Made by a program: the position numbers and the translations under genes. Under the pieces are notes generated by a model, which made no database searches, was not told the DNA's origin, and was given only the letters and a program-made list of their open reading frames with translations. Positions 1-61,300 of a DNA stretch of 64,000 nt are shown one piece after another (the first letter of the stretch is position 1; each line of letters begins with the position of its first letter). Origin of the DNA: Ascaphus truei (Eukaryota; Chordata; Amphibia; Anura; Ascaphidae); the NCBI GenBank assembly GCA_036426205.1, contig CM071571.1, positions 111,966,333 to 112,030,332 of the forward strand. The letters are read 5' to 3'.

Positions 1-146
1 AAGAGTTCTCACTTCCTGTTTCAAAAGACAGGCTTTCTAAGCCATCTTATCAGGCAGGTGGTGTTTAGTAATTAACTACCAGAGGTTAACCACCACACTG
101 CTGGATTAAAGGCACATTACTGAACAGGGATAAGTCCCCTGTTACA
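1..146 (-). repeat. 3' LTR (partial) of coiled-coil LTR element 1
   Basis: This stretch matches the end of the LTR at 3586-4249 almost base for base (for example the shared segment ending in CCCTGTTACA), so it is the downstream LTR of the same minus-strand element, cut by the window edge. On the minus strand it begins TGTAACAGGGG. The internal side is purine-rich on the minus strand (around 147-165), as expected for a polypurine tract next to a 3' LTR. Confidence 0.85.
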
Positions 147-205
147 TACCTCTCCTGTTTGTGGGAAGCTCGGGCTTACCACGGCCAAAGCCCATCCTTC
201 CACTC

Positions 206-2694
206 TCATTCTAGATATCTCTGTGACTTGAATGAGAATGGATGGAGGAAAAGAACCTCTGTCCCGCTGGGATTGGAGCCCTTTCTCCAATTTATTTTTG
301 TCTCCTCCCGAAGATGCTCGAGATCAGCACTCCTCAGTCGCTCGAGGAGGACTTTTTCCACGTAAAGTCTTTTTATCACGTGCGCGGTCTTGAGAATTCT
401 GTTGCATCGGGCACTCCTCTTTTTGTAGACAAAGTGTATGGCAACAGTTCTAGAGCAGTTAGGACTAGCCCTTAGAGTTATCTGCTCTTGAAGTGGTCTT
501 TCTGCCGCTTCTCCACACCACGGAGTCGCCAGTTCAGCTTCTTCAGCTAAGGATTCTTCTGGCTTTGATTCTGCACTCCTACCTCTGTTTGTTGCCTGTT
601 GGGCAGCTGTAGGTTTGGCTAGTGCTTTCTTTGGTGGCTCAAACTTCGTAATTTTGTTTTGAAGTTGCGTGGAGTCCCCAACTCTCACTGTACCCTTGTC
701 CTTGCGGGCATTAGTTACTGTGGGATACTGGTGCTTGGGCAGAGCCAATACCTTTTTCCGTATTGGAGGAATCTGTATCAGAGTCTCCTTCATATTCTGG
801 AGCTCTGTAATTTTTGTCGTCAAGGTTGCCGCTGAGTTTGTTTTCTCCTTGGTGTACTGACTCAAGGAAATGGAACAGTCTCTCTGTCTCTCCAGCTCTT
901 GCTCCAGTTTCTGAGCCTTCTCACGCTCCCTCTTATACAGAGTCACCTGGTATCGAAGCTCCGCTTCCAACGATGCTCTGAAGACATGCAGCGTGGCCTT
1001 TAGCTCCTCATACTGCTCTGTGGGGACGTACTGGGTATTCAGACGTTCCTGCAGCGCTGTACCTCTTTAGCAGCCTGCAGTTTTTCTTCCTGTAGCGTTT
1101 GCTGCTTCTCCTTAGTATACTGGAGGTGTGTACGCAGACCTTGCAGTTGGTTCTGCAGTCGGTGCTCTGCGTCAAACTTTTCCTTGACTTCTTCTGTTAA
1201 CTGAAAATTTTCTTCTTTCAGTTTTAAGTTTTCTCTTTTTAATCTTGAATTTTCTCCTTTTTCAGTCTCTGTATTCTTCAGGGCTTCTTTGCAGTCCTCC
1301 TTCCATTTACACACATCTGCTTTGAGAATGACCATCTCCTGGCGTGAGACTTCCTTCTCTAGGTTGAGGGTCTGAAGCTCCTTCTGAGAGACTTTGAGAT
1401 CTGCATTAAGATTACCAATAGTTTCTTTAGCAATGTCCAACTCCTAAGTGAGACTGTGTAGTTCCTATCTGGAAACTTCCAGGTCTGTGCGGCAGCTGTT
1501 GGTCTCATGATTTGAGGCATTCAGTGCTCTGCGGAGTGTCTGAACCTCTTTCTGAGATACGTCCACTTCTATCCGGACACTGTTGATCTCCTGTTGTGAG
1601 GCATTCAGCTCTATGCGAAGAGTGTGAACCTCTTGTTGGAAGACTGTCATCTGCTTCAGTGCCTCCTCATACTTCCGCTTTAGCGTAGCCACCATTTTAT
1701 CAGATTGGCTCTGCTTTTCATCCATGGCGGAAATAGTAGCCTTTGCAGTATCTAGCTCAGTCTTGAGATCGTCCAATTCTGTCCTGGCTAAAGAGTAAAT
1801 TGTGAGCACATCTTTTTGTAGCCTCACATTATTTTTCTGTAGCTCTGTGTTATCTGCTCTCTCAAGTTTCAATTGTTCTCGAAGTAGATCACAGTCACGC
1901 CTGACACTTTTCAGGGAGTCTTCAGGGCTGGTCAAGGGATCGTCACTCACTGGTTCCGGCTCCGCTTCCCTGGGATGGTTGGTTGAGGGTTCCTCACTGT
2001 TGGCACCGGACAGACACTTCTTTGGGGTACCCGACTTCTGCCTTGGGCCCTCTGGATATTCGGTTAACCGTGGGACGAATTCTCCATTTTCTCTAGGCTG
2101 CAGGGCAACTCTGTCCCCCATTTTCTCCACAGGATCTGCGGACGTGTCTGTTACTTCCACGCTAAGTGAAGAACCGCTTTTCTTTTTCTTTTTCCGCCTT
2201 TTTGATTTGGATGACACCGTCCCTTCAGGGATATTGGGGTCTCCATGTTCATTTGAAATGTTAGCAGCTTCATTATATACGCCAGGCTTTTCTTGCAGCT
2301 GCTTTAGCTGACAGAAATATTCGGTGATCCACTGCTCCCTCTCTGTCTCCTGCTGATCATATTCGTCATCCAAGGGAGCTTTCTTTTCTGTTCTTGCCGA
2401 GTTCAGGCACCCTCACCATTCTTGGGGTGTTTTGTGGTTGTGACTCGGTTCGGGTTCCCCGTAAGAGATGTCTTCCTCTTTATTGGACTGGAAGGGCCAC
2501 TCTTCCGTGGGGTAGGGTTCATTACAGGAACGCTGCATCTTGTCCTCCATTTTTAGGCTATCAGGTGTCATTTTCTTCCTGACCTCAGGAGGCGCTATTG
2601 CAGCTGTTGCCACTGTATTTGCTAGAACCCCCAATTGTGGTAGTCCTACAGATGGGCATATTTTGCTTGTAGAGGTCGTAGCTCTCACAGGCAT
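206..2694 (-). pseudogene. Coiled-coil ORF of LTR element 1 (broken)
   Basis: Four minus-strand open segments (2694-2413, 2373-1465, 1440-1039, 970-206) line up with the matching ORFs of the second copy at 18853-21559. The first three share one frame and are separated only by stops; one TGA here is TGG in the other copy. A frame change near 1040 leads into the last segment. The predicted product would be about 800 residues: a hydrophilic N-terminus, a lysine-rich stretch (RRKKKKKSGSS) resembling a nuclear localisation signal, then heptad-rich coiled coil containing 14-residue repeats of the type LNASQQEINSVR / VDVSQKEVQTLR. No zinc knuckle, protease, RT or integrase motif is seen. It could be a very divergent Gag or a captured host coiled-coil gene. 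I do not recognise a named protein. Confidence 0.7.
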
Positions 2695-3565
2695 CTCTGT
2701 AGACTTTTCTTTCTTGGTTAATTTTTTTTTCTTCCAATATCAGCAGTACTGTGCATGCATTTTCTTTTATCAGGTATACAAGATTGTGCAGTTGCTAGGT
2801 AAAAAAGTATATTTGCTATACACCATTTATTTGCTGGGTGCAATCCCTCCGCTTCAGCAACAGAATTTGGTTTTTGGTTCAGTAATTTTCAGTCTCATCT
2901 TTGGGTATTATGGCATTCACACTTCCCACTTTGGGTGTCTGTTTTGCTCCCAAGATAATAGGCATACTTTTTTACTTGCAGAAAAAAAAAACATTCTTTG
3001 CAGTGGACTCAAAACTCAGCAATTGGCTTTGAAAAACCTTTTCCTTTATAGGGCAATTTTACACTCAGTATTTGTTTGCTAAAAATTCCCTTGCTTCAGC
3101 ACAGTCTTGTATCAATTGTCACACTTTTCTGCATATACTTCATTCACAGCTGGTAGCCCTATGCGGTGTGGCAACCTTTATTTGCAAAATCAGTACCACT
3201 CGTGGGTCACCATCTGTATTCACTGCTTCAGCAAAACTTTTGAAAACAACAAACACCTATCCCTTTTCAAGGGCTGACTCACTTCTTGAACCCTGACTAT
3301 GGCTGGAAGGCAAAACCCCTATTTCAATGACCATATTACGCTTTGTGATGGGCAAATAAAGTTTTAGCTGCTTCAGCTTGGGATTGGAGTAAAGAGTCCA
3401 TCTGTGTTTTTGTAAGTTTCAGTGCAGTGGTGTGTCCCTTTAATTCTGATCTCTGCTACATGAGGTTTTTTTTTTTTTTTTTCTCAGACTGTTTGTAGGC
3501 AAAAAGCATAAAAAAAAATTTCACATAAAAATCTCCGGTCCTTTTTAACTATAAAGACACCTCTT

Positions 3566-3583
3566 GTCCCACCTCGGACACCA
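3566..3583 (-). promoter_or_regulatory. Primer-binding site, tRNA-Leu-like (element 1)
   Basis: On the minus strand, two bases after the LTR end, the sequence reads TGGTGTCCGAGGTGGGAC. It closely matches the complement of the 3' end of vertebrate tRNA-Leu (TGGTGTCAGAAGTGGGA, from established knowledge). The position immediately inside the LTR supports a role in priming reverse transcription. Confidence 0.7.
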
Positions 3584-3585
3584 TA

Positions 3586-4249
3586 TGTGGACGGATGTTC
3601 ACAGAGGTACGCAATTAGGAGGCTTTATAATGTGAAATTATAATAAGGCTTTATTGTGCCTTTTCCTTTTTATCAGGAAAACATCCAAACAAGGGGGGGG
3701 GGGAGACAAAGCTTCCGTTCACTTGGGAGTATTTCTAGTGAAAACACTATGCAATCAATTCACATCTCCCTAGTCAAGCATTTCTCCCCAGCCTCAAACA
3801 TAGCATGCAATAAGCAGATATAAGCAGTCTCTTAAGAATAAAAGTCTTATCTGTTTGTAAGCTTCTCTGCTCTCCTGGATCCGCACCCATGCGTGCACAG
3901 AAAATATCAGCATCCAGGTTTTAGAAGTCTTACTTGGTCCTTTTGGTTTGGAGGGAAAATCTTTACTGTCCCTGCTTCAGCTCCCTTGTCTTCAGCGTTT
4001 GTCAGCATACAGGTTTAGAAGTTTTCCCTGTGTCTTGAAAGCAGCTCTGCTATCTTTTAGCTCAAGACAAGTGTGTCTCCAAGTTCAGCTCAGGTGTCAG
4101 CTAAAGAGTTCTCACTTCCTGTTTCAAAAGACAGGCTTTCTAAGCCATCTAATCAGGCAGGTGGTGTTTAGTAATTAACTACCAGAGGTTAACCACCACA
4201 CTGCTGGATTAAAGGCACATTACTGAACAGGGATAAGTCCCCTGTTACA
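3586..4249 (-). repeat. 5' LTR of coiled-coil LTR element 1
   Basis: A 664-bp LTR that on the minus strand starts TGTAACAGG and ends CCACA. Its plus-strand end repeats the first 146 bases of the window. It also resembles the LTRs at 18317-18894 and 22436-23012 (AATAAGGCTTTATTG and AACATCCAAACAAGGGG motifs, same termini). The other target-site duplication is outside the window. Confidence 0.85.
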
Positions 4250-5150
4250 GTCCAGCTAACCAACCTCCAGAGGGAAGATCGAGAACGCGCCCTCATCAGA
4301 GAGCCAGGAAGTCCCAGATGCACCGGAAGTGACACGGACCTCCGGCGTGGATGCAGGAGCATTCCAAAGCAGCAGAGATCTACACGGGACACAGGGAGAT
4401 CGCGGCCCACTGTTTACCCATCATCCGCTGCTGATAACGCTGTCTTTTATCTTCATAAGTGTAAGCCTTCATTTGTAGTATGTTTTAAGAATATATTTTA
4501 GCTGTCTACACTATTTGGTCCTTTTCCTCTTTTTTGGAGATAAGTTGCTGGTAGTTGCTGCACCAACATCAGGGAACATCCACCCCTTTAAGTTGGATGA
4601 CTGCTCCTTTTTGCTACCTTCATGTGAGTAGCTATTTGTGAGCCTGTCTCATTACTATCACATTATGTTACAACATTTCTATACTATGTGATGGCTTTTT
4701 ATTTTACATGGCTGCAAGCTGTGATCCTCTGGTATTTTTTGGAAGTACCCTATGATGCAGCCTGATCAGGAACAGGGGCGGTACCGATCACGCGCATCAC
4801 GGAGGTCAGGGGGCAGAGCCTGGTACGCACATCACTCCCATGCTGGTCCTGTCCGTCACCAGAGCGGGGGCGGAGATTGGGACGTGCGTCAATGGGGAGG
4901 CTGGACGAATGCCCCTGTCACGCGCCGGAGTTAGCGCCATTAGGGCATAGCGGGGACGAGACAGACCGCACAAGATCCGCCTGCGCGTAACTGGGCCATG
5001 GGATTGCGCATCCTGGATGTCTGTCGCGGAAGGGTCTTTAAGGAGGAGACGGTCTGTGGCCGCCAGGTTGGCGATTCCTCACACCGGGGGTCTCCGGAGC
5101 TGACCCGCATTAATTTAGGCTCCGGAGACTCCTGGCTTCAATCCTAGATA
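4250..5150. other. Intergenic, no gene recognised
   Basis: This lies between the coiled-coil LTR element and the large DNA transposon. The 4740-5130 part is CpG- and GC-rich with a short open frame (4752-4934) of no recognisable similarity. It may be remnant LTR or Penelope 3' sequence, but I cannot support a specific assignment. Confidence 0.4.
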
Positions 5151-5174
5151 CAGTGGCGGCCGATCTGAGTCTAA
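5151..5174 (+). repeat. Left terminal inverted repeat of the 8.9 kb transposon
   Basis: TA followed by CAGTGGCGGCCGATCTGAGT, paired with the inverted right end at 14019-14042. CAGTG immediately after TA is typical of Tc1/mariner ends. Confidence 0.75.
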
Positions 5175-5689
5175 GTTGGCTAGATCCGCGGCTCTCAGAT
5201 TATCCCGGTTAGGTGCGTTTTTTTGTCATGTTCGCCCGGAGTGAACTGCGTTATTTTCGCGCTCGTGATATTAGCATTTTATTCTCGCTGTCTGCAATAC
5301 TGCAATGCCGTGTAAAAACTCAGGGGGGCATTTGCGAACTGTTGTCTTGGAAGTCTAATACCTTTGTGGTTCAACCTACGTCAGTACAGTCTGTGTGCGC
5401 GCACGCAGTAATTGTAAATTTGCATATTTAAAGTATACATGCATTTGCAGTGCTGTGCTGCTGTACAGTATGTCTCATTTGAAAATTGTTGAAACGCATA
5501 GGCGTGTACAGTACTGTAACAGTGTCACATTTCGGCATATACAGCGCTCTCCCCTCGCTCAGGATAATTAACTGCACTGCAGGGTATTTCAACTTCTTAT
5601 CTTCTGTGCAATGCAGTACATCTCTCCCACACCATTCCTTTGAATGTGTGTCTGGTTTCAATCACATTCCTGCTTGACAGCAGGAATTT

Positions 5690-7080
5690 ACTGCGCATGC
5701 GCCTGTAACTTCGCCCACCACTGCTTGCCTGAGTGAGTGACCAAAAAAAAATTACATTTTTTTTAATTGTATTTTTTTTTCTCCACAAGCCTGCAAAAAT
5801 CATCTTACTGTATTATGATATTCAATCTGTGCTGTAGCTTTTGACTGCGACCCTGTGCATTTGACTGCACATGGTTGATTTGTATGCTTTTTACGTACTG
5901 TATTTGGGGGTGTATTATTATGATGAACTGCCTTTTGAAATTAAAGTATGTCTTTAGCTTTGAACTTCATGCAGCTGTACCCTGTAGCCCCCTCCCCCAC
6001 GAACGCTAGCTCAAGGATTTGAAATTCCACAGAGTCGTTAATTTTCTGAATCTTGCCATTGTGTTCTTAATCCGTCCATAGCCGAGCTACAAAGCCTCAC
6101 TGCGCCTGCGTGTAATACTTTTAGAGATGGGATCTGCTTACTGCGCATGAGTCACCCAACCCCCCCTCTCCACAGAGTCGTTAATTTACTGAATCTTGCC
6201 ATTGTTTTCTGAATCCGTCCATAGCCGAGCTACAAAGCCTCACTGCGCCAGCGTGTAATTCTCTTTGAGATGGGAATTTTGAGACTTTGTTTACGGCAAT
6301 GCTTTGGAAAATCCCTTCTCGAATTTGATTTGCACAGAGCATCACCTCTCTATGCGCCTGTGTGTAATCCTCTTTCGGATGGAAGCTAGTTTATTCCTGC
6401 TCATGCGCCTGTAACTTCACCCACCACTGCTTGCTTGAGTGCCCCCCAAATTTTTTTTTAATTATGATTTTTTAACTGTTATTTTATCCACAAGCCTGCA
6501 AAAACAATATTGATATTACGATATTAAATCTGTGCGTTTGCCTGCACATGGTTTATTTGTGTGCTTTTTATGTACTGTATTTTGGGGGTGTAGGGATCAA
6601 ATTACAGTATTATGATGAACTGCCTTTTGAAATTACTGTACTCTACAGTACAGTATGTTATTTCTTTGAACTGCTGCACAACTAATCCTTCATCCCTCCC
6701 CCACGCACACACAAACTCTTATCGACAGACACCTCCACAGAGTCATTAATTTCTGAAGTTAGTTAGTCATTGTGTTTTTAATCCGTCCCTAGCCGAGCGT
6801 CAATCACCTCACTGCGCCTGTGTGTAATCTAATCCTTTTAGAGATGGTAGCTTGCTGCTTACTGCGCATGAGTCATCCAACCCCCTCTCTCCATAGAGTC
6901 GTTAATTTTCTGAATCTTGCCATTGTTTTCTTAATCCGTACATAGCCAAGCTACAAAGCCTCAGTGCGCCTGCGTGTAATCACCCCACCCCCCCAACCCT
7001 TTGAGGCTTTGTTTACGGTAACACTTTGGAAAATCCCTTCTCGATTTTGAAATGTAAATCCGATTTGCACAGCATTGTGA
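5690..7080. repeat. Tandem ~700-bp subterminal duplication with nested ~90-bp repeats
   Basis: Two units (about 5690-6390 and 6400-7080) share the same order: a CGCATGCGCCTGTAACTTC segment, a poly-T/ACAAGCCTGCAAAAA segment, two copies of a ~90-bp repeat, then a TTTACGG...TTTGGAAAATCCCTTCTCGA tail. The ~90-bp repeat (CCACAGAGTCGTTAATTT...ATCCGTCCATAGCCGAGC...CTGCGCC.GCGTGTAAT) occurs at 6027-6116, 6170-6259, 6734-6829 and 6890-6980. No coding frame is evident. Subterminal repeats of this kind can be transposase-binding sites, which is inference here. Confidence 0.75.
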
Positions 7081-7410
7081 GAATCGAGAGTTAAAAAAAC
7101 CATTAACTGTGTCATGTTGTTTTGTCATTCATTCTTATTCATTGGTGTACTGTAGGGGTGGGGGCGGGGGGGTTGTGGTTGTTGTCAATGATTATGATTA
7201 GCAGGAATGTGAATAAATATTTATTTTATTTTATCAAGAACCAAAAAATAAAAATATAAAAATAATAATGAATAATACATAATGCAGTCTTTATTAAGTT
7301 CTTTTGGCAGATTGAAATTGGATGAACATTTAGAAAACATTTGTAAAACATGGGGAAACATGAATAATGCACATTTATAAGAATATTATTTAATAATATA
7401 TACTGTAATG

Positions 7411-7412
<2 letters not shown>

Positions 7413-7442
<30 letters not shown>
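7413..7442. repeat. (AT)n microsatellite
   Basis: Pure alternating AT tract downstream of the transposase stop codon. Confidence 0.9.
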
Positions 7443-7446
<4 letters not shown>

Positions 7447-7964
7447 ATATTATTTTTTCCGTCTTTATCTTGTTCCTCATTATGTGTACAGTACAGTAGT
7501 TCATTGAGAGAGGAGAGGTTTTGTGCACATCATTACTGCTGTTTATATACTGTACATTTGACTGTACAAACAAATTAGACTGAACACAACACCCCACCTC
7601 CCCCCAGGCCACCCTTTTTTCCTGAAACGACAAGAAAACAAAAAATTAGTGCAGTTATGTGCGTACTGTATTATGGCATTGTGTGATGTGTAGTACTATT
7701 GTACATGGCTGGTGCTGCTTTCTCTGGAAAGAAAAAAATTGAGCAGTTAGTAGGCAGTTACTGTAGTACTGTCAAACTAGTCTATACTGGAACTACTGTA
7801 TACTCTGACTACTGTTAAATACTATGTACTGTAACCTGATGGTTGGTGCTGCTCTCTCTGTAAAGAGAAAACTGTAACTACTGTATACTCTGATTATTGG
7901 GAAAGAAAAAATGTGTGCCATACTTACCTGTATCATACTGTACTTACAATACTGCAGCACAGTT

Positions 7965-9656
7965 CTACTTTCCTGATGCTTGCCCATTACGCGCGATCAC
8001 AATGGGCAACACAGTGGCAATATGGTCTATATATTTATTGCAGCATTCCACAGTGAGTACATCGTTCCAAAAACTCATTATGCCTTTCAACAACTCGTCC
8101 TTTTTGGAGGGTTTCGCCACTTTCCGGATATGGTCCTTCAGCTGATGCCAGACCATTTCGATCGGATTGAAGTCTGGCGATCTGTCATTGGAAAAAAAGG
8201 ACAATTAGTTTAAGAGATACAGTACACAGTAAAAACAGTGGGAAAAAAATGAGACACGGTTACCGCACTTACTCCGCTGGCGTCTTCACCCAGTTGATAC
8301 AGCGCTCAAGGATATGCGCTGTTGACGCGGTGTGCTTTGGATCGTTGTCCTGGTAGAAGCGGTGACCATTCGGGAACTCGCGTGTGATGTATTGCACTAT
8401 CTCAGGGACAATGTTGTCTTGGAAGAAAGCTTTATTCATGATTCCTATAGCAAGAAAATAAAAGTGCTCAAAAAACTGCACAATAGTACAGTACAGTGCA
8501 TACAGTAAGGTTACACTAGTAAATACAGTGCATAAGGCTACATTATATTTGATATATTTTACCTTCAAAGATGACAATGCATCCTGGTCCACGCCTAGAG
8601 ATGGCACCCCACACATGCAGATTCACGGGGTGTTTTGGCCGCGGCTTCAAAGATATGCGGCCTTTTCTGTGGAATGCAAAGCTTGCAAATCTCTCCAGCG
8701 ACACAGTAGACTCATCAGTGAAGATGCAATCCTGGAAAGTCTCCCCACTGTCGATCCATGCCTGGGCCTGGACCACTCTTTTGATTTTGTTTGCATCCCG
8801 TATCATGGGGTACGCTCTGTAATGACAAGGAATAAATAATTTTAGCGGTACAGTACAGTTTCCTAAACAACACTTTTACCTCCTGTACTGTCCAGAACTA
8901 ACCTCACACGTCCATATTTCCATCCAATGCTGCATCTCATCTTCTTTATGCTGGTCTCGGATACAATGAGATTGTGATTTTCCTGCAGAGTATATTTGAC
9001 CCTTAATGCACTCTTCTCATCATTCTCCTCACTTATTTTGTCCACCAGAAGAGTTGTCTCCCTACAATGTAAAGAAAAACATTCCGGTAAGTAAAAATAT
9101 TAGAGACAGTAGATCAACAGGATATAAATATAAATATACAAAATATATATACTGTTGTAATATAAATATAAATATACAAAATATATATACTGTTGTAATA
9201 TAATATACAAAATTATATATACTGTTGTCAAATAAATAGAAATATTACCCAAAAGAATATGATAATACGTGTGTAATATAATATAAATATACAAAATATA
9301 TATACTGTTGTAATATAAATATAAATATACAAAATATATATACTGTAATATAAATCAACAGAAATAACAAAAATATTAGATACAGTACTGTAGATGTACA
9401 GTACATTTTTGGATCTAAATTTTTTTAAAAAGTTTTATAAATATACTTACGCGTTAGTTACCCTTACGCGTTAGTTACCCTTGGAGCCCTTTTGCGAATC
9501 TCTGTTTTTTCCATGTGCATGATAGCTCACGGTGGTTGCTGGCACAACGAGGCCAGAAGTAGCTAACCTGCGTTGGATAGCAGCAATTCGGTGTCCACTC
9601 GTGTACATCTCCTTAATTCGCATGCTGAGATCCTTGGAAATCTTTTTAACAACCAT
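7965..9656 (-). CDS. Intron-containing Tc1-like DDE transposase
   Basis: The exons read 9656-~9474, 9061-8903, 8816-8563, 8444-8273 and 8181-7965. Exon 1 carries an N-terminal HTH ([20 protein letters not shown]). Exon 2 holds a second HTH-like region ending IGWKYGRVR. Exon 3 holds the first catalytic Asp (CIFTDEST) and [17 protein letters not shown]. Exon 4 holds FEGIMN and the second Asp (YQDNDPKHT). Exon 5 begins within ESPDFNPIE, which holds the third acidic residue, and ends NGQASGK. Introns between exons 2-5 are GT-AG (donors GTTAGT, GTAAAA, GTAAGT; acceptors ACAG, ATAG, ACAG) and splicing restores the family frame at each junction. The exon 1-2 join is unresolved: candidate donors GTAACT and GTAAGT near 9450-9475 do not give a clean frame, so a small exon or an indel is possible. 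About 325 residues, close to the usual ~340. The enzyme would cut and join the element ends at TA. A pyrimidine tract and CACAG just before the ATG suggest a 5' UTR intron. Confidence 0.85.
9118..9345. repeat. AT-rich tandem repeat within first transposase intron
   Basis: Repeated units of the type AATATAAATATACAAAATAT followed by ATATACTGTTGT occur several times. A separate 17-bp direct duplication (ACGCGTTAGTTACCCTT) sits at about 9450-9482, right at the exon 1 donor region. Confidence 0.75.
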
Positions 9657-9914
9657 TGCTGTGAATAGAAAGAAATACAGTACAAACACAAGAATGTATA
9701 TTCAATGTTTAGTCGATGTGTATTCAATGTGCAGTGAATCCACAAAATGGATGGTGTATTTATACGGTAATGACTCACATTAGAGTATGCCCACTTTCAA
9801 CACCTGTACCTCGCCGCCATGCATAAAAGGTTACACACTTTGCATAGCCCACCACTCGATGATCTTTATCTGAACTTGCCCTTGTCCAGATACTGCATTG
9901 TGCCACCTGCTTCC
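9657..9914. promoter_or_regulatory. Divergent promoter between transposase and BEN genes
   Basis: The 258-bp gap separates the two start codons. A TATA-like TGCATAAAAGG at about 9821-9831 points toward the BEN gene. On the minus strand, CCGTATAAATAC at about 9753-9764 points toward the transposase. The BEN-side box (GTGCATAAAAGG) and neighbouring blocks such as ATGCCCACTTT.AACACCTG are conserved in the second copy near 59.81-59.88 kb, in the same head-to-head arrangement. This supports coordinated expression of the two genes; function is inferred. Confidence 0.6.
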
Positions 9915-11387
9915 ATGGAGCAACCCCGATTCTATGGACGCAGGAACCCACTCGACTCTGCCGTGCCTGTCAAGCAGAAAAAGCGAAAGGCGGTTGCCGT
10001 TTCCATGCCAAGGCAAAAGCGACAGGCTAAGGCCAATAAAGAAAACCTTCTGCTGACCCCAAAGGCTAAGGGTTTTCATAGACGTCAGCCTTATTATGTC
10101 AAGAAGATATACGGTGATGTACTCTCGACGCAAAACGATTGGCAGCCAACCCATCGAATCTGCAGACCACTTACTCACATACGCTTCGACGACTCTGCCG
10201 CCGCTGTCCCAGAAATCTTCAGCCCGTCTTCTCCACCCCTCGTCCTCGACGCTGCCACCGCCCTCCCGGAAACCCACAGGCCATCTTCTCCGGTTCTATC
10301 CGACGACGCTGCCGCCTCTGAAATCCACGGGTCACTTTCTCCTTTGCTCTTAGATGACCCTGCTTCTCGTCCGGAAATCCAAAGGTCACTTTCTCCATCC
10401 CTCTTCGACAACGCTGCTGCTTCTCCTCTACCGGATATCCACAGGTCACCTCCTCCACCCTTCTTCGACGATGCTGCCATCTCAACCCCCATCTCATCCT
10501 CGTTGCACCCATTCAGCCAGATGTCCACACGCCATGCACAAGACGTTAGACCAGATGCTGAAGGGGATAAGTGTGGATCTCCCCGGGAACTCTATTGTGC
10601 TAGCATAGATAGATTTGCTTCTGGAGACCATGTTAAATGTGGAGCAACGGATGCTACATATGGATCAACGGATGATACATATGGATCAACGGATGCTACA
10701 TATGGATCAATGGATGGATCGACGGATGGTGAAGATAGAGGCTGACATAGCGGGTATACATCATTTGCTCGGTGTTAATGCCCCTGTTTCCCCGATGTCG
10801 GAGCAGGGGGGTGACATGGATGTGATGAATGGGAGCATCGACCCCTTTCATCACCAAGCGCACCCCCTCCACCAGAAGATGTAGTGTACATGTATGCCGT
10901 TGAAGAGGACATGACAACCCCGTCAAGACCACGCCAGGAGACAACACGGCGACCAAGACCGGAGGAAAGCTTCCTCCCAGACAACCTACCATTGCCCGTC
11001 GCCTCAAGCACACCCGCTCGCAGAAGACCTACATTCGCTCGCATCGATACGGTGCCCGACATCACCCTGTGCGATCTGCCATTGGCGCTCAGGGAGAAGT
11101 ATACGGTGATGAGTGCTGGTGCACCCCACAAGTATGCCTTGCTTCTTTTTAAGCACCATGTTCCCTACTCGTTGTACTGCGACTGGGCCTTCAGAGTGAA
11201 CTACGAAGGAAATCGAGTAAAAAAGGCGCTTCCTGCCAATTTAAGAAAGACCATTCTGGATGAAATGCGGCGCTATTATACAATTACAGATCCTGTAATG
11301 AAAGGCGTTCGAGGCTGCATTAATGGCATTTTGCGCCATGCAAGGAATCGGCCACGGACGGACAATGTGGTGGACTTTCTGGTTTAA
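9915..11387 (+). CDS. BEN-domain-like protein gene of the transposon (frame-disrupted)
   Basis: The start MEQPRFYGRRNPLDSAVP is matched in the second copy by LDQPRFYGRRN. The N-terminal part is basic (KQKKRKAVAVSMPRQKRQAK), then PYYVKK, then about five proline/serine-rich repeats of roughly 18 residues (DDAAASEIHGSLSPLLLDD type). A second frame (about 10540-10880) gives a Met/Asp-rich coiled-coil segment (MDQRMIHMDQRMLHMDQ). The last frame (about 10815-11387) ends in a domain resembling BEN: YALLLFKHHVPYSLYCDWAF, KKALPANLRKTILDEMRRYY, VRGCINGILRHAR. The reading frame changes twice and a TAG lies at 10606-10608, so this copy looks damaged unless undetected introns remove these sites. BEN domains bind DNA or chromatin, which suggests a regulatory or target-binding role. 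The BEN call rests on pattern resemblance. Confidence 0.65.
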
Positions 11388-11533
11388 TCATGGGAACTGT
11401 AAGACCATACTGTTGTGCTGAACTGTGCTGTGCTGTACATGTTTTGACCTGCTGAACTTAAATAAAGGAGATGTTTTGACCTGCTTTACTGTATTTAACT
11501 TACTGTTTTAACTTGCTGTACACACACACAGGA

Positions 11534-11636
11534 CCTGCACAATTCCAGTCCCTGAGGGCCACAAACAGGCACAGTTTTCAAGGTTGTCCTGAAAACCGGG
11601 CCTGTCTGCTGCCCTCGAGGACTGTAGTGGTGCAGG
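11534..11636. repeat. Small palindromic MITE-like repeat, copy a
   Basis: The ends CCTGCACAATTCCAGTCCCT and, inverted, CCTGCACCACTACAGTCCTC form imperfect inverted repeats around GAAAACCGGGCCTGTCTGC. It was duplicated along with its surroundings. Confidence 0.65.
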
Positions 11637-11892
11637 CCTGACTGACTGTTTTGCACACCATCCCACTGTACTGTATACTGTATGTTTCTTTAATAAAGGA
11701 GATGTTGCGTTTTGTATACTGTATTTTATGAATAAAGATTTTTTTTAATCACAGGTAAGACCATACTGTTGTGCTGAACTGTATTGTACTCTACATGTTT
11801 TGACCTGCTGTACTTAAATAAAGGAGATGTTGTTGTGTGTTTTTTAACTTGTATTTATACAGAAATGTTTTAACTTGCTGTACACACACCGA

Positions 11893-11994
11893 CCTGCACA
11901 ATTCCAGTCCCTGAGGGCTGCAAACAGGCACGGTTTTCAAGGTAGTCCTGAAAACCGGGCCTGTCTGCTGCCCTCAAGGACTGTACTGGTGCAG
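11893..11994. repeat. Small palindromic MITE-like repeat, copy b
   Basis: Second copy of the 11534-11636 repeat, carried in the second unit of the tandem duplication; a few substitutions and a shortened right end. Confidence 0.65.
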
Positions 11995-13080
11995 ACTGTT
12001 TTGAACACCATCCCACTGTATATGTTTTGACTTGCCGTTCTTTAATAAAGGAGATGTTGCGTTTTGTATATTTTATGAATAAAGAATTTGTTTTTAAAAC
12101 ATGTGACTGTAAACCATACTGACTGACTGTAAATGTTTTTATTTTCTATACATAAATGTTTTCACAACTGTAGCAGTAAACCATACACCTGTTGATGTTT
12201 TGAATTGCTGTGCACTTAAAATGTTTCTACATTGTACAGTATTTGTAAATAAATGTTTTTGTACTTACTCCACCAATAAAAGAACATGTTGATTTGGTTT
12301 ACATTGTTCCATTGGCTCCTTTGCTACTGTAACAAAATACAGTGTTTCTAGAATGTCGAAGCATACTGCACTGTATACTGTAGGCATGCTCAGTATAAGA
12401 GTATTAAAAAAAATAGAAGACATATACTGTACTGTATGTACTGGCACTGTATACTGTCGAAGACACATAATGTATGTACAGTACTGTGATACATGTAGAA
12501 TAAATGCATAGTTTTTATTTTTTCGGGTTTATTACACAGTATACTGTATATAAAAAAGTATTGCATACTGTACGGCCGGAAAACATCAGCATACTGTTTC
12601 CGGTACAGTATTCTATCCTAATCAATAACAATGGCCACTAAACTGTAGACTCCGGTACGTGGGTTTTTAAATCCGATTCAGCAATGTGCTGGCTTTGTTA
12701 CACAAAGCGATATTATCCATCGAAATCCCTCCATTAGCCGTTTTCTTTTCTGAGGAAAAATAAAAGTTTTACTGTAATGGTCTAAAGAAGTTCCCAGCCA
12801 GTCCCACCAATAATTTTCTCGGGGGGCGTCTCCTGTTCACATGCGCATGCGCCTACCGTCGATGTAATGAAACGCATACTGTATGCGTTTCAAGAAGGTT
12901 CCAATGAGCATGCGCCTAGCGTTCCACCAATTGTTCAGTATCTGCAGTACAGTACTGTAGAAGCCGCTCAGCCAATGATATTGCTTACAGGAGAATCGCT
13001 TGACTTTTGAATCGCACCGATATTGATACTGTATTGTCAAAATAAAAAAAACACGGAAAATAATACGGCAACAATACTCA

Positions 13081-13659
13081 CCATAGAATTTCCCATTCAG
13101 CTGGTGCTGGCGCCGGTCCACTGCCAGTCCAGTGTTCTTGATCATCCACGTCGATAGTTTGCAGCGGGACTAGTCCACCTGTAGTCAGCTGATGAGGCTG
13201 GAAATTGCTTAGGTACATGCAAGCTTGATCGAAACTGCACGCGAAATCCAGCTCAGGCTCAGGGTTGTCACTGACGGTGGGACCGTTATTGGAAGCCGGT
13301 ACTGGTGCATTGCTTGGCAGCGACTGTCGTTTCTTAGTTGGTTTTAACACGACCTTTCGCCTTTTGCCGTCTGCATAATCATAGATACAGGAAAAAGCCG
13401 GTGATACACACCAATACCCTCCAACAAATTGTGGCTCAATACGATAAAAACAGGGATCGCTACATAACCTTTTCCTTATTGCACGCTTCCACGTATGAGG
13501 AGCTGGCGAAAATTTGTAAAAGTCATGGTTTTCGATAAAATACTGATAAATTTGAACAACTGTTGCCATCTTATTATCTGTTGCATTAATCGCGGCCCAT
13601 ATCAAATACGCGTAACTTCTGTCGGGTTTTTGGAAAACGGGCTGCACTTGAACACTCAT
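13081..13659 (-). CDS. Forkhead-domain-like DNA-binding protein encoded in the transposon
   Basis: The 193-codon frame starts MSVQVQPVFQKPDRSYAYLI. Residues about 11-90 follow the forkhead pattern in order: a SYAYLIWAAI helix 1 (family: SYA.LI..AI), IYQYFIENHDFYKF (family: IY.yI...fpyy), a recognition-helix region WKRAIRKRLCSDPCF (family: W.NSIRHNLS.N.CF), and a wing ending GGYWCVSP (family: G.yW.l.P). The usual SIRHNLS is altered to AIRKRLC. A basic block (GKRRKVVLKPTKKR) follows, then an acidic, Pro-rich tail. The frame closes at a TGA at 13078-13080 that overlaps a good splice-donor match (ATG|GTGAGT). An acceptor (TTTATTTTTCCTCAG) lies near 12750; joining there would create a stop at the junction. 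The gene lies just inside the right end. A DNA-binding role is inferred from the fold; the transposon role is unknown. Confidence 0.75.
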
Positions 13660-14018
13660 GGCAGGCGGCGGGTCTCTGGAGAATACTGTAACCGAAACTG
13701 GTCTTTGTCTTTCTTTAATATGAAAAGCCTAAATTGATACATTTTTGCAACCTCTTCCTTCAGTCTCAAGGCCAAGTTACAATAGCACACTGCTACACCT
13801 GCAAGTCGACACATTACTGAAGCGCATGCGCATTACAATTCATGAATATCTGCCATCTGGCGGACACGCGAAGAATTGCAACCTATTAAATTCGAACCAT
13901 TCTCAATAAACGCATCAACCGCGCGTCAACCGCGCATGACCCGTGGCTGAGAACGCAAAATGAATGCGGCATGCTCCAGGTGAAGTGCATCGCATGCCAG
14001 GGAAAAAACGGCGATGTG

Positions 14019-14042
14019 TTAGACTCAGATGAGCCGCAGCAG
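14019..14042 (-). repeat. Right terminal inverted repeat of the 8.9 kb transposon
   Basis: The reverse complement starts CTGCTGCGGCTCATCTGAGT and pairs with 5151-5174; it is followed by the flanking TA at 14043-14044. The adjoining inner region (about 13830-13990) is homologous to one half of the MITEs at 48781 and 56886. Confidence 0.75.
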
Positions 14043-14044
14043 TA

Positions 14045-18182: not shown

Positions 18183-18316
18183 CCCTGATAGCACACCTTC
18201 AGTACGTTAATAAAGAGCTGAGAAGCCCCCCCCTTTTTTCGTCTTATATTACCACCTAATAACACATTGGTAATATGTATTTGAAGTGACATTTTCATAC
18301 CAACATATATGATATC

Positions 18317-18894
18317 TGTAGGAGGAATGCGCACAGAGGTATGCAAGGGAGACTTGTTATGGTGAAATTAAATAAGGCTTTTATTGCGCCTGTTTCCTTA
18401 ACATCAGAAAAACATCCAAACAAGGGGTCAAACAAAGCTTCTATTCCATTGGGAGTATTTCTAGTGAAACCTATGCAGTCCACAACTCCCTTTAGATAAG
18501 CATGTCTCCCAGCCCCAAACATATATCTTGATATGAGCAGATATACCAAAAGTCTTATAAAGGAAAGTCTTATCTGTTTGGTGGGAAAGTCTTCTCTGTT
18601 CCTGGGTTGCTGCCTTTTTCCTCAGGTTTTGTCAGCATTCAGGTTTAGAGGTGTTTTCCCCTGTGTCTAGCAAGCAGCTCTGCTATTTCTTCTGGCAGGC
18701 TCAAGACATCTGTCCCCATGGCCAGTCTCACAGCTTGTGAGACTCAGGAACAATCTCCCTTCATGTCTCAAAAGACAGGCTTTTCTAAGAAGCTAATCAG
18801 GCAGGTGGTGTTGGATAATTGACTACCAGCAGTTAACCACCACACTGCTGGATTAGAGGCACGTTTCCTGAACAGGGATAACTCCCCTGTTACA
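18317..18894 (-). repeat. 3' LTR of element 2
   Basis: On the minus strand it starts TGTAACAGGGGAG and ends CCTACA. It is nearly the same as 22436-23012 across its length. The inner flank on the minus strand, ACAAACAGGGGAGGTA, is a plausible polypurine tract. Confidence 0.88.
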
Positions 18895-21559
18895 TACCTC
18901 CCCTGTTTGTGGGAAGCTCGGGCTTGCCACAGCCAAAGCCCATCCTTCCACTTTCATTCTAGATATCTCTGTGACTTGAATGAGAGTGGATGGAGGAAGA
19001 GAACCCTCAGTCCCGCTGTGATCGGAGCCCTTTCTCCAGTTTATTCGTGTCTCCTCCCGAAGGTGCTTGAGATCAGAACTCCTCAGTCGCTCGAGGAGGA
19101 CTTTTTCTAAGTATAGTCTTTTTGCTACGTGCGCAGTCATGAGATTTCCCTCGCGTCGGGTGCTCGTTTTATTGTAGGCAGACTGTATGGCAGCAGTTGC
19201 AGAGCGTTTAAAAAGAACCCTTTGAGTTTTCCGCTCTTGAAGCAGTCTCTCTGCACTTTTCCCACTTAATGGAGTTGCTAGTTCAGCCTCTTTGGGATTA
19301 AGTTGCAAATCCATTTCCACTTCCAGAGAATGTCCCATCTTTTCAGCTTCATCAGCTAAGGGTTCTTCTGGTTTTGATTCAGCACGTGTACCTTCTTTTG
19401 TTGCCTGTTGGGTGGCTGAAGGTTTTGCTAGTGCTTGTTTAGGTGATTCAAATTTTGCAACCTTGTTTTTCAGATGAGCGGTATTCCCAGCTCTCACTGT
19501 ACCCCTGTCTTCGTGGGTTTTTGTGGCTGTGGGATACTGACGCTTTGTCAGGGTCAATACTTGTCCTTGTAGAACTGTAATCTCATCTGCGAGAGATCCC
19601 TGTTTTTTGAGTGCATCTTGCAAGTCTCTTCTCAGGGAATTTACCCGCACGCTTTGTTTTCTCTGAGCTTGCTTCCACATTTTCACAGCATTGTGAAGCA
19701 CTATGAATTTCTTTGCTTGGGCCACAGTTACTTGTCTCAGTTTCTGGACCTTCTTGTGCTCCCTTTTGTGCCGAGTCACCTGGGTTCTAAGCTTGGCCTC
19801 TAGCGATGCTTCTGTGAGGCTCAGGGTAGCCTTCAGTTTCTCATGCTGCTTTGCGGGGACATACTGGGTAATCAGACGTTCCTGCAGCACCTGTATTTAT
19901 GTAACAGCCTGCAGATTGTCTTCCTGCAGAGTTAGCTGCTTCTCCTCAGCCATCTGGAGGTGCGTATGCAGACCTTGCAGTTGGTTCTGCAGTCGGTGCT
20001 CTGCTTCAAAAATCTCACCTTCCAAAAGTCTAATTATTTCTTTACTTCTTTTTTAATCTTAAATTTTCTCCTTTTTCAGTCTATGTACTATTCAGGGCCT
20101 CCTTGCAGTCCTCCTTCCATTTATGCACTTCTGCTTTGAGAATGACAGTCTCCTGGCGTGCAACTTCAATCTCCAGATTTAGGTTCTGAAGCTCCTTCTG
20201 AGAGACTTTGAGATCTAAGTTAAGATGGAGGATAGTTTTCTTTGAAATGTCCAGCTCCTCAGTGAGACTGTGAAGTTCCTTTCTGGAGACTTCCAGTTCT
20301 GTGGGGCAGCTGTTGATCTCACGATGTGAGGCATCCAGTGCTCTGCGGAGTGTATGAACCTCTTTCTGAGATACGTCCACCTCTGTCTGGACACTGTTGA
20401 CCTCCTGTTGTGAGGCATTCAGCTCTTCGCGAAGAGTGTGAACCTCTTGCTGAAAGACGGTCATCTGCTTCAGTGCCTCCTCATACTTCCACTTCAGCTT
20501 AGCCATCATTTTATCAGATTGGCTCTGCTTTTGATCCATGGTTGAAATAGTAGCATTTGCAGTATCTAGCTCAGTCTTGAGATCGTCCAATTCTGTCCTG
20601 GCTAAAGAGTAAATTGTGAGCACATCTTTCTGTAGCTTCACGTTATTTTTCTGTAGCTCTGTGTAACCATCTTTCTTTTGTTTCAATTGTTCACGGAGCA
20701 TATCACAGTCATGCCTGGCATTTTTCAGGGCATCTTCAGGGCTGGTCAAGGGATCGACACTCACTGGTTCCAGCTCCGCTTCCCTGGGATGGTTGGTTGA
20801 GGGTTCCTCACTGTTGGCTCCGGACAGACACTTCTTTGGGATACACGACTTATGCTTTGGGCCCTCTAGATATTCGGTTATCCGCGGGACGAATTCTTCA
20901 TTTTCTCTAGGCTGCAAGGCATCTCGGTCCCCCTTTTCCTCCACAGGATCTGCGGACGTGTCTGTTCCTTCCACGGTAAGTGAAGAACCGCTTTTCTTTT
21001 TCTGCCTTTTTGTTTTGGGTGACTCCGTCCGATCAGGAATACTGGGGTCTCCTTCTTTATTTGCTACTTCAGCGGCTTCATTACATACGCCAGGTTTTTC
21101 TTGCAGTTGTGTTAGCTAACAGAAATATTTGGTGATCTGCTGCTCCCGCTCTCCCGTCGATCATACTCATCATCATAGAGAGCGGTCTTTTCGGTGCGTG
21201 CTGAGTTCAGGCACCCCCACCATTCTTGGGGTGTTTTGTGGGTGTGACTCGGTTCGGGATCCCCGTAAGAGATGTCTTCATCTTAATTGGACTGGAAGGG
21301 CCACTCTTCCGTGGGGTAGGGTTCATTAAAGGAACGCTGCATCTTGTCCTCCATTTTGGGGGACCATATCAGGTGTAATTTTCTTCCTGACCTCAGGAGG
21401 CGCTATTGCAGCTGTTGCCACTGTATTTGCTAGAACCCTCAATTGTGGTAGTCTTACAGGTGGGCATATTTTGCTTGTAGAGGTCGTAGCTTTCACAGGC
21501 ATCTCTGTAGACTTTTCTTTTTCTTGGGTAAGTTTTACAATATCAGCAGTACTGTGCAT
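18895..21559 (-). pseudogene. Coiled-coil ORF of LTR element 2 (broken)
   Basis: Segments 21559-21326, 20974-20081 and 19890-18895 correspond to the ORFs of element 1. Shared landmarks are TSTSKICP near the N-terminus, LSGANSEEPSTNHPREAE, IYSLARTELDDLKTELDTA, repeats such as VSQKELQNLNLE, and LLERLRS.DL.HLREET.INWRKGS near the C-terminus. Frame interruptions fall at different places from those in element 1, which implies an intact ancestral frame of roughly 850 codons. The protein is mostly coiled coil and highly charged. The last open segment runs on into the LTR. Function unknown; a Gag-like structural role or a captured host gene are both possible. Confidence 0.7.
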
Positions 21560-22413
21560 GCATTCTCTCTCTCTTTAGGTATACATGATGTGCAGTTGAT
21601 AGGAAAAAACTTCTATTTGCTTTACACCCTTTACTTGCTAGGTTTAATCTCTCATTAGGTATACTGGATGTGCAGTTGCTAGGTAAAAACTTCTGTTTGC
21701 TTTACACCATTTACTTGCTAGGTGCAATATCCTCCGCTTCAGCCAAATAATGTGGTTTTCTGCTTGAGTTCAGTAATGTTCAGTCTCAACTTTGGGTATT
21801 ATGGCATTCACTCTTCACACTTTGGGATACCTTTTACGCAGCTCAGCAATTCCTTTTTCCCCAGTAGGACAATTTTACCCTCAGCACTTGTTTACTGAAA
21901 ATTTCCCTGCTTCACAGTCTTGAATCAATTTTCACACTTTTCTGCATATGCTCCATTCACAACTGGTAGTCCTATGCGGTGTGGCAGCCTTTACTTGCAG
22001 AATCGGTACCGCTCGTGTGTCACCATCTGTATTCACTGCTTCACTGCTTCAGCGAAACATTTGAAAACAACAAACGCCTATCCCTTTTAAGGGCTAACTT
22101 ACTTCTTGAACCCTGACTACAGCTGGATGGAAAAACCCCTATTTCAATGACCATATTACACTTTATTTGTGATAGGCAAATACGGTTTACCTGCTTCAGC
22201 ACGGTCTCCCTCCTCTTGGAATCGGGGAAAAGAGTCCATCTGTGGTTTTGTAAGTTTCAGTGCAGTGTAGATTTCCTGCCTGGGTGTGTCCCTTTAACTG
22301 GTCTCTGCTGCATGAATTTTTGTTTATGTTGCTCAGACTGTTTGTAGGCAAAAAGCACAAAAAAAAATTCACAGGCAATCTCCGGACCCCTTTTAACTTC
22401 AAGGACCACCTCT

Positions 22414-22433
22414 CGTCCCACTTCTGACGACCA
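22414..22433 (-). promoter_or_regulatory. Primer-binding site, tRNA-Leu-like (element 2)
   Basis: The minus strand reads TGGTCGTCAGAAGTGGGAC two bases inside the LTR. Apart from one inserted base it matches the expected tRNA-Leu complement TGGTGTCAGAAGTGGGA better than element 1 does. Confidence 0.75.
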
Positions 22434-22435
22434 TA

Positions 22436-48728: not shown

Positions 48729-48780
48729 GGACTGATACTGGAAGGGCCCAGGAAAAAGTAGCGTCCGGGAGGCTATGCTA

Positions 48781-49156
48781 CTGCACCGACACACTTTATT
48801 CGAGCAAATACCCGGTATGTACCTGGCAGATACCTGGAATGCGCCACTCCTCACCTCTGACAAGCCCCGTTGCATTTGCCTTCCCAGCCTGGGTTCATGC
48901 CTGGCTGATGGGCGGCTGATCTGTTAAATGATAATGATTAGGATTTAATACAATGCTTCGCGGGTCTACCAGATGGCATAAATTCATGAATTTTATATAC
49001 TGTGCAGTATTGCAGCCAGCGGGAATAAAATGCTTCAATCCCTGCTTGGAAAATAACTCAATGCACTTGGGCAGAAAACAGTCACAAACCTCAATACACC
49101 CGGGTATACCCGAATTCGTGGGACTAGCCAAGCTCGAATAAAGTGTGTCGCCAGTG
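48781..49156. mobile_element. MITE derived from the 8.9 kb transposon family, copy 1
   Basis: 376 bp flanked by TA. Inverted ends: CTGCACCGACACACTTTATT and CACTGGCGACACACTTTATT. Its left half (AGGATTTAATACAATGCTTC, then CAGATGGCATAAATTCATGA) matches the inverted right subterminus of the 8.9 kb element (13830-13990). Its right half (inverted) matches the left subterminus around 5225-5310 (TGCAATACTGCA, TGCGTTATTTTC type). No coding capacity. Confidence 0.75.
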
Positions 49157-49164
49157 TATATACA

Positions 49165-56815: not shown

Positions 56816-56885
56816 TATTGTATAATAGTTATACAGAATATAGCGAGAAGAGTCCTGGGAGGAGACTTAATACATCAGGAACATA

Positions 56886-57307
56886 CTGCTGCGACACACT
56901 TTATTCGAGCAAATACCCAGTATGTACCTGGCAGATACCTGGAATGCGCCGCTCCTCACCTCAGACAAGCCCCGTTGCGTTTGCCTTCCCAGCCATGGTT
57001 CATGCCTGGCTGACGGGCGGCTGATCTGTTAAATGATAATGATTAGGATTTAATATAGCCTGCAAATGCTTCGCGTGTCTACGATGGCATAAATTCATGA
57101 ATTGTAATGCAGTATATTAATATATACTGTGCAGTATTGCAGCCAGCGGGAAAAAATGCTCAATCCCCCTGCCTGGAAAATAACGCAATGCACTCGGGCA
57201 GAAAACAGTCACAACCACCTCATACACCAGTACAAAACCACCCTGTATACCGTAAACCACCCCTAACTTTGGGACTAGCCGAGCTCGAATAAAGTGTGTC
57301 GCCAGTG
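56886..57307. mobile_element. MITE derived from the 8.9 kb transposon family, copy 2
   Basis: 422 bp flanked by TA (56884-56885 and 57308-57309). Ends CTGCTGCGACACACTTTATT and, inverted, CACTGGCGACACACTTTATT. The first eight bases equal those of the 8.9 kb element's right end (CTGCTGCG), and the other end differs from its left end by one base (CACTGGCG against CAGTGGCG). TTCGCGTGTCTACGATGGCA and AAATTCATGAATTGTAATGC match inverted 13835-13895. Inverted 57115-57200 matches 5225-5310. Confidence 0.8.
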
Positions 57308-57309
57308 TA

Positions 57310-59520: not shown

Positions 59521-59607
59521 ACAGTGCATTTTGCTAAATATCTGACAGCTGACAGTGCTTTTTGCTAAATCAGGTTCGAATTCAGTATCCAGCATCTGAT
59601 CTTTAAA

Positions 59608-59679
59608 AATTCCGTGTCCTTTCTTGTACATGTTCTGTATTCTTATTCTGAGATCCTTTGAAATAACTTTCTTCTGCAT
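59608..59679 (-). pseudogene. Transposase exon 1 relic, second copy of the large transposon family
   Basis: MQKKVISKDLRIRIQNMYKK aligns with [20 protein letters not shown] of the copy at 9656. The match is lost after about 24 codons and exons 2-5 are absent upstream. As in copy 1, a splice-acceptor-like pyrimidine tract ending CTATAG precedes the ATG. Confidence 0.7.
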
Positions 59680-59969
59680 CGCTGCTATAGAAAATAAATC
59701 AAGCACAGAAGAATGTATATTCGATGTATATTCAATGTGCATTGAATACACAGAAGTGATGGTATATTTGTAATGTTATGGGCCTCACTCGACAGGTTAA
59801 GGTATATGCCCACTTTTAACACCTGCAGCTCTTGTGCATGCCCGCCAAAAAAATCAAAGGGACACAGTGCATAAAAGGTGACACAAATTGCATAGCCTCC
59901 CACACGCTGATCTCTATCTGAACAAGTTCTTGAACAGAAACTGTTTTGTGCATTCTTCCATCGGCTGCC

Positions 59970-61300
59970 TTGGATCAACCCCGATTCTACGGACGAAGGA
60001 ACCTGCTTTCTTCTGCTGTGCCGACCACTAGAAAGCGACTGTTGGAAGCTGTTTTCAAGCCAAACCCAAAGGTGCCTGGAGAAAAGGTTCCGAAGGCTCC
60101 CAAGGCAACAAAGCCTGGCCCTTTTTATGTGAAGAAGAAAATGGCCAAAATCCAAAATGATCTATCTGTTGGGACTGGCAACAGAAGTGCCCCTGCACCC
60201 GCCGAAGCAGAATCGGATATCCCGGACTTTTCACTGCCATCGCCCACCGCCACGGATTCCAAAACATCCGCCTGCTCTGTCCCTTTGTCCACCGATGCTC
60301 ATCCGGAAAAACCCCCAGCTCACCTTCTCCAGCACCTAGCAACACCGATGTAAGTCCCGAAGCCCCCAGCTCACCTCCTCCAGCACCCATCCACGCCGAT
60401 GCTCATCCAGAAACCTCCAGCTTACCTGCAACTGCACCCAGCAATGCTGATGTAAGTCCCGAAGCCCCCAGATTACCTTCTCCAGTACCCAGCCATGCTA
60501 ATGTTCATCTGGGGGACACCAGAACTCCTTGCAGCAGATCCAGCTCGATCGCATGCATGCTGGATATTTTCAGTGGTATCGAAATCACTGACAACTCAAC
60601 AGAGCAATACAGGGACCGAATTGAGGCCAAGATGGATCGTCTTTTGTAGACCATGGTGAATATGGATACTGTAGGTGCATGGGTGGCATGGGTGTTCATC
60701 TTGATAAGATTGAGAGGAACATTGCGTGGCTCTATTCTTTGCTTCAAGTCCCTGCCCCTGTATGTCCGACGCAGGAGGGTGGCCTAGAGGTGCCTTATTC
60801 TTCCATGGAGGAACTACTGAATACCCCCCTACCCATGCAACCTCTCAATCCATGGATTTGACCTTCAAGTTGCCAACACCATGCACACCATGGGCCCCCC
60901 ATGCTCACCCCCTCCGTCTCTAGAACAAATGTATACCCTTCTGTTGGAGGAGATGACAACCCCGGTAAGCGCTAGGCCACGATAGGAGGAAAGCATCTTC
61001 CCTGACCATCTACCTCCGCCCATTGCCAAAAGCACACCTGCTCCAGCGCCCAGGATTGCACAGCTCCCAGACATCACCCGGAGAGACCTGAGCCCCAGAG
61101 TGTCCAGGAGAAATACAAGATTAGATCAGCAGATTGGTCTACCTCAGAAATATGACCAGTTCTATTTCTGTCTTCTATTTTGCATGTCTGGAGCTTGGCA
61201 AAGACAACCTGCAGGAAGCCCCCCCCCCTTGCTGCATGAAACTCTCCCAGCAAAACTGCCAGGTAAGACACAGTGCTCAAATCCATGCATGCCATGTCTC
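59970..61300 (+). pseudogene. BEN-type gene relic, second copy
   Basis: The start region LDQPRFYGRRNLLSSAVP matches MEQPRFYGRRNPLDSAVP of copy 1, with ATG replaced by TTG. PFYVKKK matches PYYVKKI. A proline-rich repeat array (units like SPEAPSSPPPAPIHADAHPE, about 60290-60510) stands where copy 1 has its own Pro/Ser repeats. The coiled-coil segment (VHLDKIERNIAWLYSLLQVP) and the segment before the BEN domain (STPAPAPRIAQLPDIT) follow in the same order. The BEN domain itself is reduced to fragments near 61170-61265. Several stops and frame changes. Confidence 0.7.

Follow-up and report, generated by a model that had tools for sequence, protein, structure and literature searches.

A large TA-flanked interval of Ascaphus truei, a tailed frog, is very probably a single Tc1-type element, with a forkhead and a BEN-like gene beside its transposase

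The Tc1 elements of vertebrates count as minimal machines that suffice for their own movement, and the usual size of a Tc1/mariner element is 1.3-2.4 kb. Whether such an element can acquire and keep further genes is the question raised by an 8.9-kb interval (positions 5151-14042) in 64,000 nucleotides from the tailed frog Ascaphus truei (assembly GCA_036426205.1, contig CM071571.1, positions 111,966,333 to 112,030,332 of the forward strand; this whole stretch is called the window). A preliminary description took the interval for one TA-flanked element with a Tc1-like transposase, a BEN-like gene and a forkhead-like gene. Judged from its ends and its coding sequences, the interval is very probably one Tc1-type element. 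It is likely to be a single decaying cut-and-paste transposon of the Tc1 kind with three genes, the extra proteins of which would regulate the element. The coordinates are collected in Table 1.

Table 1. Features of the 5151-14042 element and of its relatives in the window.
Feature	Positions	Strand	Remarks
Whole element	5151..14042		TA at 5149-5150 and 14043-14044; end regions common to two small elements
Left terminal inverted repeat	5151..5174	+	19/24 identity with right end
Left non-coding arm	5688..7050		duplicated block 5688-6328 / 6394-7050, four copies of a ~107-bp unit
Transposase exon 5	7965..8181	-	catalytic E in SPDFNPIE
Transposase exon 4	8273..8444	-	second catalytic residue; joints as in Ascaphus model P0002
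Transposase exon 3	8563..8816	-	first catalytic D, FTDES
Transposase exon 2	8903..9061	-	part of DNA-binding half
Transposase exon 1	9450..9656	-	3' end disrupted (17-nt tandem duplication, in-frame stop) when compared with P0004
BEN-like gene	9819..11387	+	divergent from transposase; reading frame shifts within gene
Forkhead gene	13078..13659	-	intact single open reading frame, 193 codons; Pfam and PDB matches; Ascaphus relative P0001
Right terminal inverted repeat	14019..14042	-	19/24 identity with left end
Small non-autonomous relative 1	48779..49158	-	380 bp including TAs; joins a right end region to a left end region
Small non-autonomous relative 2	56884..57309	-	426 bp including TAs; joins a right end region to a left end region
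Eroded related-element fragment	59543..61168	+	transposase exon 1 (minus) next to the BEN-like gene (plus), divergent layout as in 5151-14042

The interval is bounded by 24-nt inverted ends with a TA outside each, and 19 of 24 positions are identical between 5151-5174 and 14019-14042. Two marks of the Tc1/mariner elements, a TA target-site duplication and terminal inverted repeats, are both present. As a chance control, all TA-anchored pairs spaced 3-15 kb within the window (n=3,587,425) were scored in the same way. Only four reach at least 19 of 24. The two pairs that score 20 both come from one pair of unrelated repeats; those that score 19 are the 5151/14042 pair and one other, which joins ends of the two small elements. 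Because four pairs in the window reach this score, the inverted ends alone are only suggestive.

The case for a single element is carried by the homology of its end regions with the two small elements, and not by the inverted repeat. A TA flanks both ends of each small element, and the two are about 82% alike in a comparison of the window with itself. The left end matches small element 1 over 174 nt from the TA inwards (5149-5322, 65%, 68 bits). On the right, positions 13845-14001 of the end region align with small element 2 (72.5%, 97 bits), and the self-comparison places the right-end region common to the small elements at 13830-14001. As a control, 300 pieces of 200 nt were taken at random from the window outside these regions, and none exceeded 28 bits. 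The outermost bases are asymmetric (TACASTGGCGRC on the left, TACTGCTGCGRC on the right), an asymmetry common to the big and small elements, and the outermost 12 bases of the right end also agree with the small elements. The left motif has three mismatch-free sites in the window, all of them left ends of the element family. The right motif has two, both right ends of the family; small element 1 deviates from it at two bases of its right end. That other copies should have the same ends had been set beforehand as a test of the preliminary description, and the two small elements have them. Together with the TA flanks, these common end regions bear out the claim of one 8.9-kb element. The small elements look like deletion derivatives mobilised by a transposase of this kind.

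Between these ends lies a Tc1-like transposase on the minus strand, as had been claimed. The gene was modelled as five exons and four introns, with the GT/AG junctions positioned by hand. The spliced product of about 330 residues matches Pfam DDE_3 at 2e-16 (60.6 bits against a cut-off of 28.6), and the catalytic D, D and E are all present by eye. By a hand count on the spliced model, the second D and the E are 32 residues apart, which differs from the 34 of the DD34E subgroup. Spacing could be measured in 96 of the 120 homologues listed, and is 34 in 80 of them and 32 in 11; P0003, P0007 and P0009 also have 32. The closest relatives, P0002, P0004 and P0014, are from Ascaphus truei and are identical to it at 88%, 83% and 73% of positions across roughly half to 60% of the length. 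Their longest contigs have three different, chromosome-scale lengths (310, 440 and 556 Mb), and their exon joints are those of the window transposase wherever they overlap. The family would have multiplied in a tailed frog, which is probably Ascaphus truei. A tree built from 116 rows, with its root at the midpoint and with SH-aLRT support, unites the window transposase with these three (support 100), and then places them in a group of 16 (support 100). Besides the window, this group has 12 named rows, all from frogs or fishes (coelacanth included), and three rows without a name. Apart from the three of Ascaphus, the named rows belong to Xenopus, Pseudophryne, Aquarana, Latimeria, Lepisosteus, Danio, Polypterus and Chaenocephalus. 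The transposase gene of the 5151-14042 copy looks broken.

The resemblance to described vertebrate Tc1-like elements (Xenopus laevis LOC121396371, Danio LOC326903, and those of Lepisosteus and Latimeria) lies in the DDE_3 transposase with its N-terminal helix-turn-helix region, the TA flanks, the short inverted ends and the CAGT start on the left. The element differs from them in its 8.9-kb size, its four introns and its two extra genes, and its D-to-E spacing sets it apart from most measured homologues.

The first of the extra genes was proposed to be BEN-like. To judge from its Ascaphus relative, from the eroded related copy in the window and from the pattern of substitutions between the two window copies, the gene is real. 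Two relatives were found at E <= 0.1, both from Ascaphus: P0122 (78% over 88%) and P0123. The match of P0122 to the window changes frame between 10714-10845 and 10875-11378; the gene is therefore frameshifted there, and it too looks broken in this copy. A comparison of the copies in 5151-14042 and 59543-61168 over 221 codons, with stop-bearing pairs dropped, gave a pN/pS of 0.67 (bootstrap 0.55-0.82), a value that mildly suggests selection on the protein.

The BEN identity of this gene did not hold up in the same way. Pfam gave no match for P0122 at E <= 10 and none for the window open reading frame (ORF) at E <= 1. A PDB sequence search with the ORF gave no match at E <= 5, and one with a three-sequence BEN-like profile returned only fibronectin (E 6.7). 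An hhalign comparison with BEN gave E 0.028 and a probability of 1.8%; a forkhead control reached E 0.081 and 0.7%. With a small BEN HMM, 9 of 2000 shuffles scored as high as the protein. The G-x-x-KK-x-L motif, which we take to be a BEN-domain motif and which is also seen in BEND3/BANP, is aligned in the protein. The predicted structure has a mean pLDDT of 44.7 and fold searches singled out no fold, the model being too poor for an assignment. The BEN identity is therefore not established, and the resemblance is a weak one at the level of a motif at the C-terminus. Downstream of the gene, inside a duplication, two near-palindromes of about 100 bp lie 359 bp apart (11532-11994). These are possibly small hairpin elements.

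A large and repeat-rich interval could arise as a chance mosaic, with ends from one small element and genes from separate older insertions. We consider this very improbable. The second copy also has the transposase and BEN-like genes side by side and divergent, and a transposase of the right kind sits between TA-flanked ends of the right kind. In addition, a heptamer signature (TACTGTA/TACAGTA) runs throughout the interval. The element makes up 14% of the window and holds 49 of its 91 occurrences, an approximately sevenfold enrichment over the rest, mostly in the non-coding parts. The best 8.9-kb stretch wholly outside the element has 11. The 5150 bp to the left lack the heptamer altogether, and to the right it next occurs at 15552. 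The density is 7.5 per kb in the left arm, 4.7 per kb in the transposase gene and 10.7 per kb between the BEN-like and forkhead genes (18 in 1687 bp). The BEN-like and forkhead genes have one each, and the last 314 bp have none. As the heptamer is also present, more thinly, elsewhere in the window, it serves as supporting evidence only.

The second extra gene encodes a forkhead protein, and the claim of a forkhead-like gene inside the ends is upheld by domain matches and by its position within the right end. The ORF matches Pfam Forkhead (PF00250) at 5.5e-15 (55.7 bits against a curated cut-off of 27). The best PDB sequence match is FOXL2 (7vou, 1.8e-9), aligned over ORF residues 31-125. The likeness to FOX transcription factors lies in the forkhead domain; the element protein differs in the recognition helix and in the C-terminal tail. 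A segment of the WQNSIRHNLS type (helix 3, with its Asn and His) is the base-reading part of forkhead proteins. Where FOXL2 has WQNSIRHNLS the element protein has WKRAIRKRLC (RHN to RKR), and the canonical Asn and His that contact bases are not found in it. The only relative at E <= 0.01 is P0001 from Ascaphus (60% over 156 aligned positions; longest contig 11,241 bp). It has the same distinctive C-terminal tail, which is matched nowhere else among the matches returned. In database searches, relatives of all three proteins are annotated in Ascaphus truei, and relatives of the BEN-like and forkhead proteins were found nowhere else. The stop codon of the forkhead gene lies inside a splice-donor-like ATG|GTGAGT on the minus strand (window 13076-13083), and P0001 ends at the same tryptophan. 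With the stop inside a donor-like sequence, the gene may have a further exon.

Alternatively, the element proper would consist of the transposase and BEN-like genes, and the forkhead gene would be a passenger, a retrocopy or nested insertion, in one copy or sublineage. This reading is improbable, though less so than a chance mosaic. It draws on the single-exon structure of the forkhead ORF, which is the only intact frame in a copy where the other two genes look broken. However, P0001 is at least as diverged from the forkhead protein as are the relatives of the BEN-like protein (78%) and of the transposase (73-88%). Among the 25 of 54 inverted pairs listed, a single one lies close around the gene, with arms of 19 nt at 12596-12614 / 13680-13698; it is built on the heptamer and has no visible target-site duplication. 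About 170 bp separate the forkhead start codon from the right-end sequence common to the small elements. The forkhead gene is likely a resident gene of the element.

Several observations weigh against a single element with three resident genes. The fragment at 59543-61168 has transposase and BEN-like sequence with no forkhead gene nearby, as the passenger reading would have it. This does not decide the matter, because the end of the fragment falls within the BEN-like gene. In the 64-kb window no further unbroken copy brings all three genes together, and the evidence that the set recurs is indirect. The two small elements have in common with the big one only the terminal ~170-210 bp, which does not demonstrate that their parent had a forkhead gene. 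P0001 retains only the second half of the forkhead domain, and its 14.7 bits are below the Pfam cut-off of 27. Neither the canonical forkhead site GTAAACA (2 found, 1.8 expected by length) nor RYAAAYA (27 against 24.7) is enriched in the element, a negative result that would be unsurprising if the recognition helix is changed.

A last such point is that the inner part of the inverted repeat in the small elements (CACACTTTATTCGAGC) is unlike that of the big element (GATCTGAGTCTAA / CATCTGAGTCTAA). For this reason the blastn match at the right end halts before the terminus. The inner sites (5162-5174 and 14019-14031; 48790-48805 and 49132-49147; 56895-56910 and 57283-57298) are nearly identical between the two sides of each element. 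The differences apparently mark subfamilies whose two ends changed together, an apparent co-evolution of the ends. Such a change in step would be expected if one transposase must bind both.

Tc1 elements are known to transpose by cut-and-paste, with paired ends and TA as the target, a mode that fits all parts of the element. The transposase described here would likewise cut at the paired ends and insert into TA, and a close relative of it would have mobilised the two small elements. The BEN-like and forkhead proteins may bind the element's own DNA, in the repeat-rich left arm or in the subterminal regions. This binding would control expression or transposition of the element, with the Myb-like protein of Harbinger as a model, and among the candidate roles for the extra proteins such a regulatory role is the one we favour. 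We regard as possible, but doubtful, a stricter form of the proposal. This would be a three-protein vertebrate Tc1 system in which both extra proteins, forkhead and BEN-like, recognise the repeats of the element and act as partners, either obligatory or modulating. They would have evolved together with the transposase and with the changing inner inverted ends.

The extra genes may instead be cargo that acts on the host cell, through germ-line expression or chromatin state, and not on the mobility of the element. Forkhead proteins are transcription factors, and to our knowledge Tc1 transposases normally need no partner; both points speak for such cargo. So does the recognition helix, since its difference from FOXL2 makes a changed forkhead target plausible. 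The constraint on the BEN-like frame, on the other hand, fits either role. We judge host cargo unlikely, slightly more so than the three-protein system and less so than a passenger forkhead gene, and retain regulation of the element as the preferred role.

Known transposons offer partial parallels. In PIF/Harbinger elements a transposase and a Myb-like protein act jointly in nuclear import and in binding of the terminal inverted repeats (PMC9179366). Like the element, these are DNA transposons with a second, faster-diverging DNA-binding protein, hence their use as a model for accessory help. They belong to another transposase superfamily, and the partner is Myb/SANT-like, not BEN-like or forkhead. 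The preliminary description had also held that Tc1/mariner elements normally carry one gene. This stands with an exception, the TBE elements of the ciliate Oxytricha, which are Tc1/mariner elements with three ORFs (PMC4724952). More than one gene is therefore not new in the superfamily. TBE elements duplicate a 3-bp ANT target and end in telomeric repeats (PMC3731211); they differ from the frog element in those features, in their extra genes and in their ciliate host. Literature searches did not find this gene set in a vertebrate. On the best reading, the gene set is new for a vertebrate Tc1 element and a multi-gene Tc1/mariner element is not.

Other repeats are present in the window. Two related units of 4.2-4.7 kb (1-4249 and 18314-23012) lie in direct orientation and are 77% identical over 4.4 kb. 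They are bounded by direct repeats (1-146 / 4104-4249, 99%; 18314-18894 / 22433-23012, 96%) and have long minus-strand coiled-coil ORFs. This looks like a long terminal repeat (LTR)-type or other repeat family. At 39669-41799 are three consecutive plus-strand ORFs that are reverse transcriptase-like by eye, with a C-terminal GIY-YIG-like motif (Penelope-like); a Pfam scan of the last two gave no match at E <= 0.01.

A large Tc1-type element with two extra genes would be an unusual case of a simple vertebrate transposon with accessory proteins. If this is true, Tc1 elements can acquire and keep transcription-factor-like genes, and the family in Ascaphus would provide a natural system to test the effects of accessory proteins on Tc1 mobility.

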